Shown piece by piece: positions 56,855 through 61,905 of a stretch of 64,000 nt of DNA (positions within the stretch are counted from its first letter, which is position 1; each line of letters opens with the position of its first letter). The position numbers were made by a program, and so were the translations under genes. Origin of the DNA: Agromyces sp. CF514 (GTDB taxonomy: Bacteria; Actinomycetota; Actinomycetes; Actinomycetales; Microbacteriaceae); contig NZ_FOZD01000001.1 in the NCBI RefSeq assembly GCF_900113185.1, forward strand, positions 1,240,001 to 1,304,000. Direction: 5' to 3'. The notes beneath the pieces are model-generated. The model saw only the letters and a program-made list of their open reading frames with translations, was not told the DNA's origin and did not search any database.

Positions 56855-57015
56855 ATCGATTGCTGTCACTATCCCCAGAGGTCGCGCTTTGGCCCTCGAA
56901 ATGGGGGCGGCATTCCGTCGAGGTGACCAGTGGGGGATCGATAGGTTCATTGGGCTGCTGAGTCACTCGAAACACGGCCTGGCGTCGATTCGCGCATGAG
57001 GTCCGACGGAGTGAC

Positions 57016-57043
57016 TTGGTCGCGGGTGCGGGAGTGTCATATT
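57016..57043 (+). promoter_or_regulatory. Candidate promoter of the HEPN-ATPase pair
   Basis: TTGGTC (57016-57021), 16 bases, CATATT (57038-57043), followed by the ribosome site GAGGGAGGAA before the GTG. The rest of the 203-base region after the fructokinase gene contains no gene, repeat or terminator that I can support. Confidence 0.4.
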
Positions 57044-57057
57044 GAGGGAGGAATCTA

Positions 57058-57561
57058 GTGCCTACGCCTAGTGTTGGCGATTCGATGATGCTCTACGTAT
57101 CGACCCTCAAGCTGGATCAAATCAGCGCAATTCCAAGAGGGCGCTACCCGTTACCGATTTCGACGATTCTGGCGCAGATTACCTCAGACAGACTCGTCCT
57201 TGCAGGGGTTCACTTAAGCGCGGCGGACAACTTGCTTGCTGGTCTCCAGTTTCGCTCGTCGATCAGCAGAAGCTACTACGCGATGTACCACGCCGCTCGA
57301 GCGATTGCGTACGCGTCTCATGGAGGCGATGACTATGAGAAGCACAGTGTTCTGCCACGAAATCTCCCTGGGGGTCTCGATCAGCTTGCGCTCCGCGAGA
57401 GCCAGCTCACTGATGCCCGGCTCTTGAGGAATCAGGCTGACTACGATCCCTATCCTGCTCTGGCGCCCGATTGGGAGCCTGACGCGCGCTCTCTCTACGT
57501 CACCGCGTCCGAGTTTGTGAACGCTTGCGAAGACTTTTCACTCGACAACGGATTGGTTTGA
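57058..57561 (+). CDS. HEPN-domain protein, putative defence or toxin component
   Basis: A 167-residue all-helical protein of the HEPN superfamily. Helix 2 reads SSISRSYYAMYHAARAIAYA, with R71-x6-H78 at the spacing of the HEPN ribonuclease motif (Rx4-6H). The later segment RLLRNQADYDPY is typical of the HEPN group with YYxxxHxA and RxxADY motifs. HEPN proteins are often RNases in toxin-antitoxin and antiviral systems, but some of this group are non-catalytic partners. The start is GTG 57058 after GAGGGAGGAA. It lies two bases before a P-loop ATPase gene and shares its low G+C, so the two look like one acquired unit. Confidence 0.82.
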   Translation: MPTPSVGDSMMLYVSTLKLDQISAIPRGRYPLPISTILAQITSDRLVLAGVHLSAADNLLAGLQFRSSISRSYYAMYHAARAIAYASHGGDDYEKHSVLPRNLPGGLDQLALRESQLTDARLLRNQADYDPYPALAPDWEPDARSLYVTASEFVNACEDFSLDNGLV

Positions 57562-57563
57562 CG

Positions 57564-59213
57564 ATGGAGACTACCGACACTCTTCGGGACTTGTTGGCTG
57601 ACGCTGGACTGAGTTTCGATCGAATTGAGCAACGGAGCTTTCCCGGGGAGGACTGGCTGATCGTCCTCTTGCCGGCGGACAGTCTCACTGCCGCACAGGG
57701 TCTTGCAGGTGCGTTTGAGAAGGTGATCAACGCCTCCGTCGGCCAAGATGCAAGCCAGGTTGTGGTTGTGTTCAGACCCGTGCCAACCGAGATCCCGACC
57801 GGCTCGACCGCGGATCCGACGAGGGGACGCCTCGCTGGCGGCGACGTAGACCAGCTTGTACAGCTGCTGGAAGCCCGTTCGAGAACCTCCGATGCTCTCC
57901 CAAGTCTCAAGTACATGGAGGACCCTCGAGCTGGCCTCTCGGCGATCAGCGCGTCCCGGCATCAGCTGATCTTCGGTCGGCGAGGTGTTGGAAAGACTGC
58001 CTTGCTGCTGGAGGCAAAGGCGGATGCTGAAAGGCGCGGACACGCGACGACTTGGGTAAATGCCCATGTCCTGCGGCACCTGACAGCAGGTGCCGCGGCA
58101 GCATCTGTGATCCTTATGCTGCTGGAGAGCGTTGTTCGGCAGGGTGGCGACACACAAAGCCAAATCTTCGATCGGTTGCGTTTGCTGCAAGGCGAACTCG
58201 CAGTAGAGCTCAGCGCAGAGGATGGCGGGCAGGAGTTTGTGGAGCAACGGCTTCCCGAGCTCAACACGGCTCTGCGCGCTGTTCTGCGAGACGGTCTGAT
58301 TCGGGCCTACCTCTACTTGGACGACTTCTACCTAGTTCCAATGGCTGTTCAACCCGTCCTTCTCGACTACCTTGCTGGTGCGCTGAGAGACTGCGATGGC
58401 TGGATGAAGATCGCCAGCATTGAGCGCCTAAGCCGCGTGTACGAGCAATCCACCAACATGGGCCTTGAGATTCCGCACGATGCCACGAAAGTTGATCTCG
58501 ACGTAACTCTCGAAGACCCGGGGCCGACCCAACGCTTCTTGGAGTCTGTGCTGATCAACTATGTCGCTGCGGCAGGGGTTGGCTCGCTTGGCAGCTTGGC
58601 GAAGCCTGAGGCGTTGGCGCGCCTCGTGCTTGCGTCAGGAGGCGTTCCTCGCGACTACCTCAATCTGGTTGCTTCATCAATCGTCGTCGCCCGTCAAACT
58701 CGTGAACGTGCGCGAGAAATCGGGCGAGAGGATGTGGCAGTTGCAGCCGGACGCTCCGCCCGGCGAAAGAAGCGAGATCTAGAACAAGACGTCGACGAGT
58801 CGAACTCAGCAGCCATCCTCCAGGCGCTCGAGAGCCTCTCCACGGCTGTCAAGCAGCGTGGATACGTGTACTTCCGCGTGAACCGTGCCGAGCGAGGTTC
58901 ACGAGCGTACGAGCTGATGGCGCTGCTCACTGATCTCCGATTTGTGCACCTGGTTCAGGCTTCCCTCTCCGACCAGCATCAGAGCGGCGTGCGGTATGAA
59001 GCGCATCTGCTCGACTTGAGTGAATACACCGACGTCAGATTGAAACGTGGGCTTCACGTCCTGGATCTCGAAGATGGGCGATGGATTCTTCGCCAGACAG
59101 GACAGGCACGGTTCAAGAAGGCGCTCACCGGCACGCTGTTTCGGGATGAGCTACGACAGAGTCCTGCTATCGACCTAAGCAGCCTCGACGGTTTTCGCAC
59201 GGCGCTCGAGTGA
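57564..59213 (+). CDS. P-loop (AAA/STAND-like) ATPase paired with HEPN protein
   Basis: A 549-residue protein. Residues 1-75 form a small alpha/beta domain, then a linker leads to an NTPase core. Walker A is GRRGVGKT at 138-145 (FGRRGVGKTALLLEAKADAE), and Walker B is AYLYLDDFY with D253-D254. The core is of the ORC/STAND-like type used as a sensor or switch. The C-terminal 150 residues are an unrecognised, winged-helix-like domain (RLKRGLHVLDLEDGRWILRQ). The gene begins two bases after the HEPN stop. No transposase or integrase is nearby. I know no named system with exactly this pair; a nucleotide-controlled HEPN effector is the working idea. Confidence 0.78.
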   Translation: METTDTLRDLLADAGLSFDRIEQRSFPGEDWLIVLLPADSLTAAQGLAGAFEKVINASVGQDASQVVVVFRPVPTEIPTGSTADPTRGRLAGGDVDQLVQLLEARSRTSDALPSLKYMEDPRAGLSAISASRHQLIFGRRGVGKTALLLEAKADAERRGHATTWVNAHVLRHLTAGAAAASVILMLLESVVRQGGDTQSQIFDRLRLLQGELAVELSAEDGGQEFVEQRLPELNTALRAVLRDGLIRAYLYLDDFYLVPMAVQPVLLDYLAGALRDCDGWMKIASIERLSRVYEQSTNMGLEIPHDATKVDLDVTLEDPGPTQRFLESVLINYVAAAGVGSLGSLAKPEALARLVLASGGVPRDYLNLVASSIVVARQTRERAREIGREDVAVAAGRSARRKKRDLEQDVDESNSAAILQALESLSTAVKQRGYVYFRVNRAERGSRAYELMALLTDLRFVHLVQASLSDQHQSGVRYEAHLLDLSEYTDVRLKRGLHVLDLEDGRWILRQTGQARFKKALTGTLFRDELRQSPAIDLSSLDGFRTALE

Positions 59214-59251
59214 AGTGGGGTTGGGAATAGAAAGGCTGCCGGAACGTTGAA

Positions 59252-59272
59252 CTTGAGCGTACGCCACTCAAG
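59252..59272. promoter_or_regulatory. HspR-associated inverted repeat (HAIR) operator
   Basis: CTTGAGC (59252-59258), seven bases, ACTCAAG (59266-59272). The HAIR consensus is CTTGAGT, seven bases, ACTCAAG, so only one base differs. It sits between the island and the Clp ATPase start, with the ribosome site AGGAGG right after it, so bound HspR would block the promoter. Confidence 0.88.
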
Positions 59273-59286
59273 TTCCAGGAGGATTG

Positions 59287-61905
59287 GTGCCCGAAGACTT
59301 CAACCCCGAAGCCGGTGCGAGCTCGTTCGACGAGTTTCTGAGCCGGTACCTCGCGGGTGAGCAGGCTCGCCAGGCTCGGTCGATCGACCTCAGCCGGTTC
59401 CTGACCGCCCGCACGCAAGGCATCCTGCAGCGCGCCGGACGCTTCGCGCTCGAGCGCGGCCAGACCGAGCTCGACGCCCTGCACATCCTGCGCGTCATCG
59501 TGGAGGACGACAGCGTCAAGCAGGCGATCGCCCGCATCGGCGTCGCGCCCGAGCGGCTCATCACCGCGACCGAGGCGCGCCTGCCCGCGGCATCCGACGT
59601 CGCCGACATCAACGCCGCCACGATCACCCCGAGCGCGAGCCGTGCGCTGTTCCACAGCTACCAGGTGGCGCGCTCGGCCGGCTCGACCTACATCGACCCC
59701 GAGCACCTCTTCTTCGCGCTCGTGCTCGGGCAGGATGCTCCTGCCGGACAGGTGCTCGCGCGCGCCGGCGTCACCGCCGAGGCGCTGACGCAGCAGATCC
59801 GCGAGGAGTACGCGACTGAGGGCGATGACGACGAGGGATCTCGATACGGCGCTGGCGCGCCTACTCGATCGCCGGATGGCGAGTCCGACACCCCCATGCT
59901 CGACAAGTTCGGCACCGACCTGACCGAGCTGGCCGAGAACGGCGAGCTCGACCCCGTGATCGGGCGCGTCGACGAGATCGAGCAGACCATCGAGATCCTC
60001 AGCCGCCGCACCAAGAACAACCCGGTGCTCGTCGGCGAGGCCGGCGTCGGCAAGACGGCGATCGTCGAGGGCCTCGCCCGCGCGATCGTCGAGGAGCAGG
60101 TGCCCGAGGCGCTGCTCGGCAAGCGCGTGATCTCGCTCGACCTGCCCGGCATGCTCGCCGGCACCCGCTACCGCGGCGACTTCGAGGAGCGCCTCACCAA
60201 GACGATGGACGAGATCACCGCCAACAAGGGCGAGCTCATCATCTTCATCGACGAGATCCACACGGTCGTCGGCGCGGGCGGCTCGGGCGATGGCGGCACC
60301 GACGCGGGCAACATCCTGAAGCCGCGACTCGCGCGTGGCGACCTGCACCTCGTGGGCGCCACCACGCTGAAGGAGTACCGCGTCATCGAGAAGGACCCCG
60401 CCCTCGAGCGCCGGTTCCAGCCGGTGCGCGTCGGCGAGCCCTCCATCGAAGACGCCGTGCTGATCCTGCACGGACTGAAGCCCGCCTACGAGCAGCACCA
60501 CGGCGTCGAGTACACGGATGCCGCGCTTCGCGCCTCCGTCGAGCTCAGCGCGCGGTACCTCAGCGACCGCGTGCTGCCCGACAAGGCGATCGACCTCATC
60601 GACCAGGCCGGCGCGCGACTGCGCCTTCGGCTCGGCGTGAAGACGGATGTCTCCGCGCTCATCGCGCGACTCGGCGAGCTCGAGGCCGACAAGAACGCCG
60701 CCGTCGGCGCCGAGCACTACGAGGAGGCCTCGCGCATCCGCGACGAGATCGCCAAGGTGCAGGCCAAGCTCGACGAGGTGACCGAGACCGGGCGCGCCGT
60801 GACATCCGCGGATCCGAACGCGACCGTCATCGACGAGGCCGAGATCGCCGCGGTGATCTCGCGGGCCACCGGCATTCCGGTGAACCGCCTCACCGAGACC
60901 GAGCGCGAGCGCCTGGGCGACCTCGAGGGCGAGCTGCACGCGCGCGTCATCGGCCAGGACGACGCGGTCACCGCGGTCGCGAAGGCCGTGCGCCGCAGTC
61001 GCACGGGCATGGGCGACGCGCGTCGCCCGGTGGGTTCGTTCCTGTTCCTCGGGCCGACGGGTGTCGGCAAGACCGAGCTGGCGAAGGCGCTCGCGTCGAG
61101 CCTGTTCGACGACGAGACATCCGTCATCCGCTTCGACATGAGCGAGTTCGGCGAGCGGCACACGGTGTCGCGCCTCGTCGGCGCCCCTCCCGGATACGTC
61201 GGCTACGACGAGGCCGGGCAGCTCACCGAGCGCGTGCGGCGCAACCCGTACTCGATCGTGCTGTTCGACGAGATCGAGAAGGCGCACCCCGACGTGTTCA
61301 ACCTGCTGCTGCAGGTCCTCGACGACGGACGCCTCACCGACGGCCAGGGCCGCACGGTCGACTTCCGCAACACGGTGATCGTGATGACCTCGAACCTCGG
61401 TTCGGAGTTCCTCGCGTCGCGCTCGGGTGCGCTCGGGTTCGTCGCGTCGACGGATGCCGCGGCCAACGGCTTCTCGTCGATGAACGACGTGCGTCAGCGC
61501 GTCATGGGCAAGGTGCGCGAGGCCATGCGGCCCGAGTTCCTGAACCGCATCGACGAGATCGTGCTGTTCCAGAAGCTCGACCAGCCGCAGCTGGCGCAGA
61601 TCGTGCGCCTCATGCTGGGTGCCACGTCGGCTCGCCTCGCGGCGCGCGAGATCACCTTCGAGGTGACGGATGCCGCGGTGGCGCTCCTCGCGGAGCGCGG
61701 CTACGAGCCCGAGTACGGTGCCCGCCCGCTGCGCCGCGTGATCCAGCGCGAGATCGACGACCGCATCAGCGACCTGCTCGTGAGCGGTGCGCTGGGCGAC
61801 GGCGAGGGCGTGCGAGCGGATGCCGCAGACGACTCGTTCGTGGTCGTGCCGGTTCCCCGGGCGACCGTGACCGGCGGTTCGATCGAGGTGCCGCTGGCGG
61901 CCTAA
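59287..61905 (+). CDS. ClpC-type AAA+ unfoldase (ATP-dependent Clp protease ATP-binding subunit)
   Basis: An 872-residue Clp/Hsp100 ATPase. Two Clp N-repeats fill residues about 35-170. AAA+ module 1 has Walker A GEAGVGKT (250-257). A short UVR-like middle region follows ([20 protein letters not shown]). Module 2 has Walker A GPTGVGKT (589-596), and the ClpP-docking loop LGF is at 716-718. A ClpB disaggregase would have a long coiled coil and no docking loop, so this is ClpC-type and should feed ClpP. GTG 59287 has AGGAGG ahead. A HAIR operator indicates HspR control, which in Streptomyces governs clpB and dnaK. Confidence 0.93.

Follow-up and report, generated by a model that had tools for sequence, protein, structure and literature searches.

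The stretch analysed here, called the window below, is 64,000 nucleotides of DNA from Agromyces sp. CF514 (positions 1,240,001 to 1,304,000 of contig NZ_FOZD01000001.1), and the subject of this report is a pair of genes within it, which encode a HEPN protein and an ORC/Cdc6-like ATPase and were examined as a candidate defence system. Both open reading frames are on the plus strand. The first (57058..57561) encodes, from a GTG start, the predicted RNase effector, a HEPN protein of 167 residues; the start is backed by close homologues, most of the aligned ones beginning with Met-Pro in the same register. The second (57564..59213) starts two bases past the stop codon of the first and encodes, from ATG, an AAA+ ATPase of 549 residues, for which the open reading frame, a match to Pfam family PF24389, a structure model and fold matches are at hand. 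A previous reading of this DNA (the sequence-only reading) had described the same two genes, two bases apart on one strand, and the strings GRRGVGKT, LDDF and RNQADYDPY in their products, all of which are present, and had proposed an undescribed defence system. That proposal is well supported by the co-occurrence of the genes, their proximity to defence genes and the lack of a PADLOC or NCBIfam assignment; the part that did not stand is the choice of R71 and H78 as catalytic residues.

The pair has a G+C content of 59.0% (HEPN gene 56.5%, ATPase gene 59.7%), while the rest of the window, taken as 1147 overlapping stretches of 2156 bp, has a mean of 70.4% (standard deviation 1.9, minimum 65.3%), which gives the pair a z value of -6.0. 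The G+C at third codon positions (GC3) is 63-64% in the pair versus 93% in the Clp gene downstream. The lower G+C noticed earlier in single lines (55.0% at 58141-58200 against 73.3% at 60001-60060) is thus a property of the whole pair. The absence of GGATGCC/GGCATCC from the pair, to which the sequence-only reading had given meaning, was dropped as a sign of foreign origin: with 99 sites in 64 kb only 3.3 are expected in the pair, and comparable gaps, of 2750 and 2729 bp, occur elsewhere in the window. Since the missing heptamers are not significant, the argument for foreign origin rests on base composition, and on this ground the two genes are horizontally acquired.

The pairing was surveyed with one genome per species, which gave 83 loci, of which 80 were kept and divided by ATPase score into the clade of the window's protein (best piece above 250 bits, 49 loci) and a sister clade (below 230 bits, 31 loci). 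An intact HEPN gene lies directly upstream on the same strand in 45 of the 49 loci of the window's clade. As for the remaining four, the HEPN gene is split by a transposase gene in L006, is read in two frames in L051, a metagenome-assembled genome (MAG), and is missing in L036, and L043 is truncated by the contig end. HEPN is therefore found upstream in 47 of the 48 testable loci of this clade, versus 0 of 31 in the sister clade, where L072 and L081 have less than 400 bp of upstream sequence. All 48 testable ATPases of the window's clade (L036 included) likewise have the N-terminal domain, and all 25 sister-clade ATPases tested lack it (expectation value, E, above 1), six sister-clade loci with no called gene longer than 450 residues having been left out. 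Gene counts in loci other than the window's depend on a home-made gene caller that also scores amino-acid composition; by this caller the intergenic gap is -4 to +2 nt in 31 of 43 pairs, namely the window's and 42 of the 45. For the same 43 pairs the HEPN and ATPase distance matrices correlate with r = 0.93, a value reached by none of 2000 permutations, and this correlation, in which the permutation test leaves shared ancestry, shows that the two proteins have been inherited jointly.

The distribution of the two genes was also surveyed in other collections and is patchy. HEPN (E<=1e-8) and a strong ATPase match (>700 bits) are adjacent in the same 4 of 394 genomes of the class, 3 further genomes having weaker ATPase matches and no HEPN. 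HEPN without the ATPase was sought in these 394 genomes and in viral contigs; in the latter an ATPase relative occurs at four loci, with the HEPN pair at one of these, and a single HEPN locus was found, on that same contig. The family survey of 299 genomes gave a full-length match only in the window's own genome and weak partial ATPase matches in three others, plasmids gave 23 records with partial (45%) ATPase matches (22 Burkholderia and 1 Paraburkholderia), and phage records gave no ATPase match. The loci come mostly from Actinomycetota; others, by the phyla read from the record titles, come from Planctomycetota, Poribacteria, Pseudomonadota and, in one cut contig, Marinimicrobia. The co-occurrence across genomes that the sequence-only reading had put forward as a check is borne out by these counts.

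Some loci of the survey are worth describing in their own right. The transposase-like gene of L006 (8122-9965, Actinoplanes philippinensis) encodes 342 residues, lies within the HEPN gene, in its 3' part, next to an intact ATPase gene, and is one that we take to be ISAs1-like. The locus L036 (9000-11848, Pseudonocardia eucalypti) has the ATPase with its N-terminal domain and no HEPN, and the DNA upstream looks tRNA-gene-like by eye. The sister clade (L052-L056, L058-L066, L068-L084) consists of ORC-like ATPases, mostly of 510-560 residues, from many phyla.

The HEPN protein matches Pfam PF05168 at 28.4 bits (cut-off 22) and is of the HEPN-T type, with 2hsb as the nearest structure, residues 1-35 falling outside the 2hsb match; it has Asp where the motif His would be, with an alternative His between helices 2 and 3. 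Conservation was counted in an alignment of 53 homologues, the most distant about 31% identical to the window's protein, and 17 residues are invariant in these, including Y73, Y74, H96, R124, N125, D128 and Y129. The canonical Rx4-6H motif at the end of helix 3 was not found, there being no His after R124-N125 in the alignment; its site is occupied by R124-N-Q-A-D128-Y129 (57427..57444, plus strand), with R124, N125, D128 and Y129 kept in 53/53. The predicted catalytic His, H96 (57343..57345, plus strand), also kept in 53/53, lies in the loop region between model helices 65-88 and 110-129. The string R71-x6-H78, read earlier as the catalytic motif, exists (RSYYAMYH, 57268..57291, plus strand), and R71 and H78 are each kept in 52 of the 53 homologues, but it was rejected in this role, the motif position being R124-N-Q-A-D128-Y129 and the alternative His being H96. 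The same segment contains Y73-Y74, which align, if weakly, with the substrate tyrosine of retron-Kva2. We therefore predict from the alignment that the active-site residues are H96, R124 and Y73-Y74, not R71 and H78. Such an arrangement resembles what passages of Anantharaman et al. 2013 (PMC3710099) describe for HEPN-T proteins of the AF0298 type, which keep the motif Arg and are without the motif His (Asp in several), and in which a conserved His from an insert between helices 2 and 3 may build an alternative site.

A profile of the HEPN family matched, among solved structures, two recent HEPN entries, 9xbd/9xbc, at E 3e-8 and 3e-7, as well as AF0298 (E 5e-7). The two PDB entries 9xbc/9xbd are the best sequence matches of the family; in the aligned motif one has Tyr and the other Phe where Y129 stands, which looks like a deliberate mutation, and our literature search found no paper on them. 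In a profile alignment with the HEPN protein of retron-Kva2 (36ht), the counterparts of Y73-Y74, H96 and R124 are Y41-Y42, H64 and R122, at an E of 0.45, which is below significance, the Kva2 numbering having been counted by hand from the printed alignment. The PADLOC model HEPN_IX matches the window's protein partially (16.3 bits, E 0.002). According to parts of a preprint on retron-Kva2 (PMC13405049), H64A, R122A and the Y40-42A triple mutant each lose defence against T5, and with designed triggers an intact HEPN site is needed for small RNA fragments to appear; the phage trigger D5 reduces tRNA, less strongly, even with the dead HEPN mutant.

The ATPase is, judged from its structure model (predicted local distance difference test score, pLDDT, 90.0), an ORC/Cdc6-like AAA+ protein to which a further domain is added at the N terminus. 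Between residue 90 and about 430-490 the model resembles ORC/Cdc6 and related ATPases, with ORC/Cdc6 on top, and the fold matches include DNA-bound ORC/Cdc6, clamp loaders and TnsC; in a viral fold library it matched clamp loaders and other AAA+ proteins. By sequence the assignment is marginal, the match to PF24389 (ORC-CDC6-like) being 28.2 bits at a cut-off of 27 with the best stretch only around the P-loop, and a comparison of the sequence with solved structures gave only a RecA construct and chance matches; DUF499 gave no match. The Walker A motif GRRGVGKT (residues 138-145, 57975..57998, plus strand) has G138, R139, R140, G141, G143 and K144 invariant in 59/59, and the Walker B region LYLDDF (58311..58328, plus strand) has D253 invariant in 59/59. 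A C-terminal alpha/beta part (residues 431-549, 58854..59210, plus strand) follows the AAA+ core, its boundary set by eye from the model's secondary structure. The sequence-only reading had left a C-terminal domain unassigned; the model matches reach into this end of the protein, and it is instead the N-terminal domain (residues 1-88, 57564..57827, plus strand; helix-strand-strand-helix-strand in the model) that is without assignment. This domain is our candidate for coupling the ATPase to the HEPN protein.

The surroundings of the pair point to defence. In other lineages 252 proteins are encoded within 4 kb of it, and ten of these, chosen for length, were scanned with PADLOC and Pfam. Four of the ten match PADLOC models at E<=1e-15, namely DruE in Mycolicibacterium, Cas3 in Nocardia, AriAB in an Ilumatobacteraceae MAG, where these are the PARIS genes, and a GajB-like helicase in a Rhizobiales MAG; a fifth is a NACHT protein. 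In Bordetella genomosp. 1 (L045) the pair has genes for an integrase and a ParB-like protein on one side and genes for a repressor, CII-like, O-like and P-like proteins and a terminase on the other, a gene order that places it inside a prophage, adjoining the repressor, and the viral contig with the pair (L085) has scores identical to those of L045. The position beside the repressor of a prophage is a usual place for superinfection-immunity genes.

The genes scanned around the pair in the window encode a LacI-family regulator, GH32, PfkB and, downstream (at 59287), a Clp AAA+ protein. None of the adjoining genes encodes a transposase or integrase, in agreement with the sequence-only reading, and ARAGORN found no tRNA genes in the 64-kb window. 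Comparison with relatives of the same genus places the pair in a cargo slot (56855..59244, no strand). In 24 relatives the conserved sequence restarts just before the Clp gene, at 59244-59246 (22) or 59217 (2); on the left, where the fructan operon is shared, L125 matches up to 56823 and L127 up to 56710, both inside pfkB. The content of the slot differs, with a DNA methyltransferase and other genes in L127 and a kinase-like protein and others in L125. Within the conserved right flank, 5' of the Clp gene, there is an inverted repeat CTTGAG-N9-CTCAAG (59252..59272, no strand), which we take to resemble the HAIR (HspR) operator.

Up to 14.5 kb upstream of clp was taken from 38 of 40 other genomes of the genus, some stretches being short at contig ends, which gave 34 usable slots after exclusion of L129, L132, L157 and L162, where the Clp end was not called. 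The slot (2.2 kb) has a mean G+C of 60.4%, while the DNA beyond it has 68.4%, the slot having the lower value in 29 of the 31 genomes measured. Within 3.5 kb, 80 of 104 genes lack a relative among the other fetched stretches; the figure is 54 of 103 between 3.5 and 7 kb and 82 of 172 from 7 kb onwards. At E<=1e-8 the 103 slot proteins (pfkB of L125 excluded) match 412 PADLOC models and 149 control proteins from at least 7 kb upstream match 16, redundant counts that show the direction of the difference, not its size. When the longest protein per slot was scanned singly in 30 of the 34 slots (L158-L161 left out; for L125 the Clp-proximal kinase-like protein was used), 12 of 30 matched PADLOC at E<=1e-12. 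These are a PD-T4-6-like kinase (L125), a PtuA-like protein (L126), a type II methylase (L127), Ppl (L130 and L131; L133 partial), HerA (L144; L139 weak), DpdB (L148), a type I methylase (L149), HEC-06 (L151) and an OLD/GajA-like protein (L153). Septu-like and OLD/Gabija-like genes are in this way represented among the cargo, next to methylase and HerA genes. Pfam assigned GmrSD_N (4), a ThsB TIR domain (1) and nSTAND (1) among the 103 proteins. The slot upstream of clp (L125-L162) thus looks like a low-G+C, high-turnover defence-gene hotspot of the genus, and some of its unmatched cargo genes may be further defence systems. With the defence genes near the pair in other lineages (Druantia, Cas3, PARIS) and the prophage copy, it also answers in the affirmative the question of defence proximity raised by the sequence-only reading.

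From these observations we consider it probable that the pair is an anti-phage system of the abortive-infection type, made up of two genes that move horizontally, with the ATPase as sensor or gate and the HEPN protein as RNase effector. The HEPN-T-type RNase would act as a dimer with a composite active site formed by H96 and R124, and Y73-Y74 would hold the RNA; tRNA is a plausible target by the parallel with Kva2 only. The ATPase, through its N-terminal domain, may keep the HEPN dimer inactive or in place until it rearranges in an ATP-dependent way, perhaps when it meets phage DNA, a replication complex or a phage protein; RNA cleavage would then be released and would halt growth before the phage cycle is completed. 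The loss of HEPN but not of the ATPase in L006 and L036, with the companion domain being on the ATPase, is consistent with an ATPase that can persist by itself and a HEPN protein that cannot, two cases being few.

Several points weigh against this interpretation. The surveyed loci are not independent, many being from Streptomyces, and the permutation test ignores shared ancestry. The ATPase with its N-terminal domain is retained without HEPN in L036. Two of the ten long neighbours in other lineages are housekeeping proteins (ribonucleotide reductase and the phenylalanyl-tRNA synthetase beta chain), and three are without assignment. The alignment with Kva2, at its E of 0.45, rests on position and not on score. 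For the clp slot, the numbers of PADLOC models are too high, since a single protein hits many models that are related to each other; 18 of the 30 cargo proteins scanned fall short of a PADLOC match at E<=1e-12, and among the 12 that match there are generic hits (kinase, AAA). The slot also bears LysR regulators, an MFS transporter and HIT proteins. Finally, a toxin-antitoxin role would yield much of the same pattern.

Such a toxin-antitoxin module, with the HEPN RNase as toxin and the ATPase as its dedicated neutraliser, serving selfish maintenance or stress and not phage defence, is the chief rival, and we judge it unlikely, if by no means negligible. Close spacing and co-inheritance speak for it, all four HEPN matches of the class survey adjoin the ATPase, and the ATPase persists without an intact HEPN gene in L036 and L006; a dyad of HEPN and a ParA-like ATPase is proposed as a toxin-antitoxin system in PMC3710099. 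The location of the pair among defence genes and beside a prophage repressor speaks for a different role. The order found here, with the toxin-candidate HEPN first and the ATPase second, is moreover the reverse of that in most type II modules, and an AAA+ ATPase of 549 residues is large for an antitoxin.

We hold it improbable that the ATPase is itself the effector, an initiator-like ORC/Cdc6 protein acting on phage DNA or replication, with HEPN as a non-catalytic adaptor or nucleic-acid-binding subunit. The 17 invariant residues among HEPN sequences that diverge to about 31% identity seem to exceed the needs of binding, and a similar site is required for defence in retron-Kva2 (PMC13405049), even if the fold matches to DNA-bound ORC/Cdc6, clamp loaders and TnsC, the lack of the motif His, and the statement in PMC3710099 that some HEPN families are considered non-catalytic would suit a silent HEPN partner. 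That the pair is an accessory of a mobile element, serving target selection or maintenance and not immunity, and was brought to the clp slot like any other cargo, is very unlikely, given that no transposase or integrase adjoins it in the window and that the unit recurring across phyla is the pair, not a larger element.

The anti-phage reading can be extended to an undescribed defence family in which a HEPN tRNase with a non-canonical His/Arg site is licensed by an ATPase of the cellular-initiator type (ORC/Cdc6) via a clade-specific N-terminal domain, and which is found in at least four phyla, on prophages and, in the window's genus, in a clp hotspot with further undescribed systems among its many unassigned cargo genes; we propose this wider version tentatively, giving it somewhat less than even chances. 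If the anti-phage reading is true, the pair would be a compact immune system with a HEPN nuclease under the control of an ORC/Cdc6-like ATPase, and would help to settle whether HEPN-T proteins, doubted for their missing motif His, are active RNases. H96, R124 and Y73-Y74 form a testable set of residues in agreement with the retron-Kva2 case, and further defence systems of the genus may be sought in the clp slot.

Neither protein has a full-length match in PADLOC 2.0 or a match above cut-off in NCBIfam 20.0, so that no described system is assigned to the pair by the profile search that the sequence-only reading had named. Besides HEPN_IX, the sub-threshold or partial matches were only to mad8 (E 0.022), Sll1717 (27.8 bits), DS41_1 (18.6 bits) and the DnaA homologue Hda (18.7 bits). 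A full-text literature search, with subscription papers and supplements mostly outside its scope, found no account of the HEPN-ATPase dyad or of the clp hotspot, the closest published arrangements being the fusions of HEPN to DUF499/BrxC-like ORC-Cdc6 ATPases (PMC12839542) and the dyad of HEPN and a ParA-like ATPase (PMC3710099); the available text of PMC7159879 names HEPN only in its references. The main text of PMC13092281 (DefensePredictor) reports HEPN and P-loop systems, and its supplementary list, which lay outside our comparison, could include this pair.

It is possible to compare the pair in some respects with several known systems. The P-loop region is similar to that of Sll1717-type P-loop ATPases and the DS-41 protein, but these match only over about 40 residues and below cut-off (cut-offs 75 and 370 bits, respectively). 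HEPN-MNT (HepT/MntA) toxin-antitoxin systems have the HEPN fold, but there a nucleotidyltransferase is adjacent, whereas the neighbours here are PfkB, the ATPase and Clp, and the motif His is absent. The dyad of HEPN and a ParA/Soj-like ATPase in PMC3710099 is likewise a two-gene unit of HEPN and ATPase, but as presented there its HEPN is of the MAE_18760 family with the motif conserved, and its ATPase is of SIMIBI type, not AAA+. HEPN-T/UPF0332 proteins (AF0298, 2hsb) and AbiV share PF05168, the Arg with Asp in place of His, and a His from the region between helices 2 and 3; the HEPN-T proteins treated in passages of PMC3710099 are stand-alone proteins, MNT fusions and sacsin, while here the partner is an AAA+ ATPase. 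In Type-1 BR / Hma systems, in the account given in parts of PMC12839542, HEPN is also joined with a STAND/ORC-Cdc6 ATPase in a defence context, but it is fused to a DUF499/BrxC-like ATPase and accompanied by a methylase and a helicase-nuclease; here the two genes are separate and belong to other families, and the neighbours scanned in the window include neither a methylase nor a helicase. A parallel in the predicted active site is retron type IX (retron-Kva2), whose HEPN protein, with a role in defence and RNA cleavage according to parts of PMC13405049, also lacks the canonical Rx4-6H and has a composite His/Arg site and tyrosines that align with the residues predicted here, at a similarity below significance. 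There the HEPN protein is held by a reverse transcriptase, multicopy single-stranded DNA (msDNA) and a winged-helix protein. None of the scanned window neighbours is a reverse transcriptase or winged-helix protein (the retron non-coding RNA was not searched for), and the place of these partners would be taken by the ORC-like ATPase. A HEPN effector with an NTPase regulator is a known kind of system, and what would be new in the pair is the combination.

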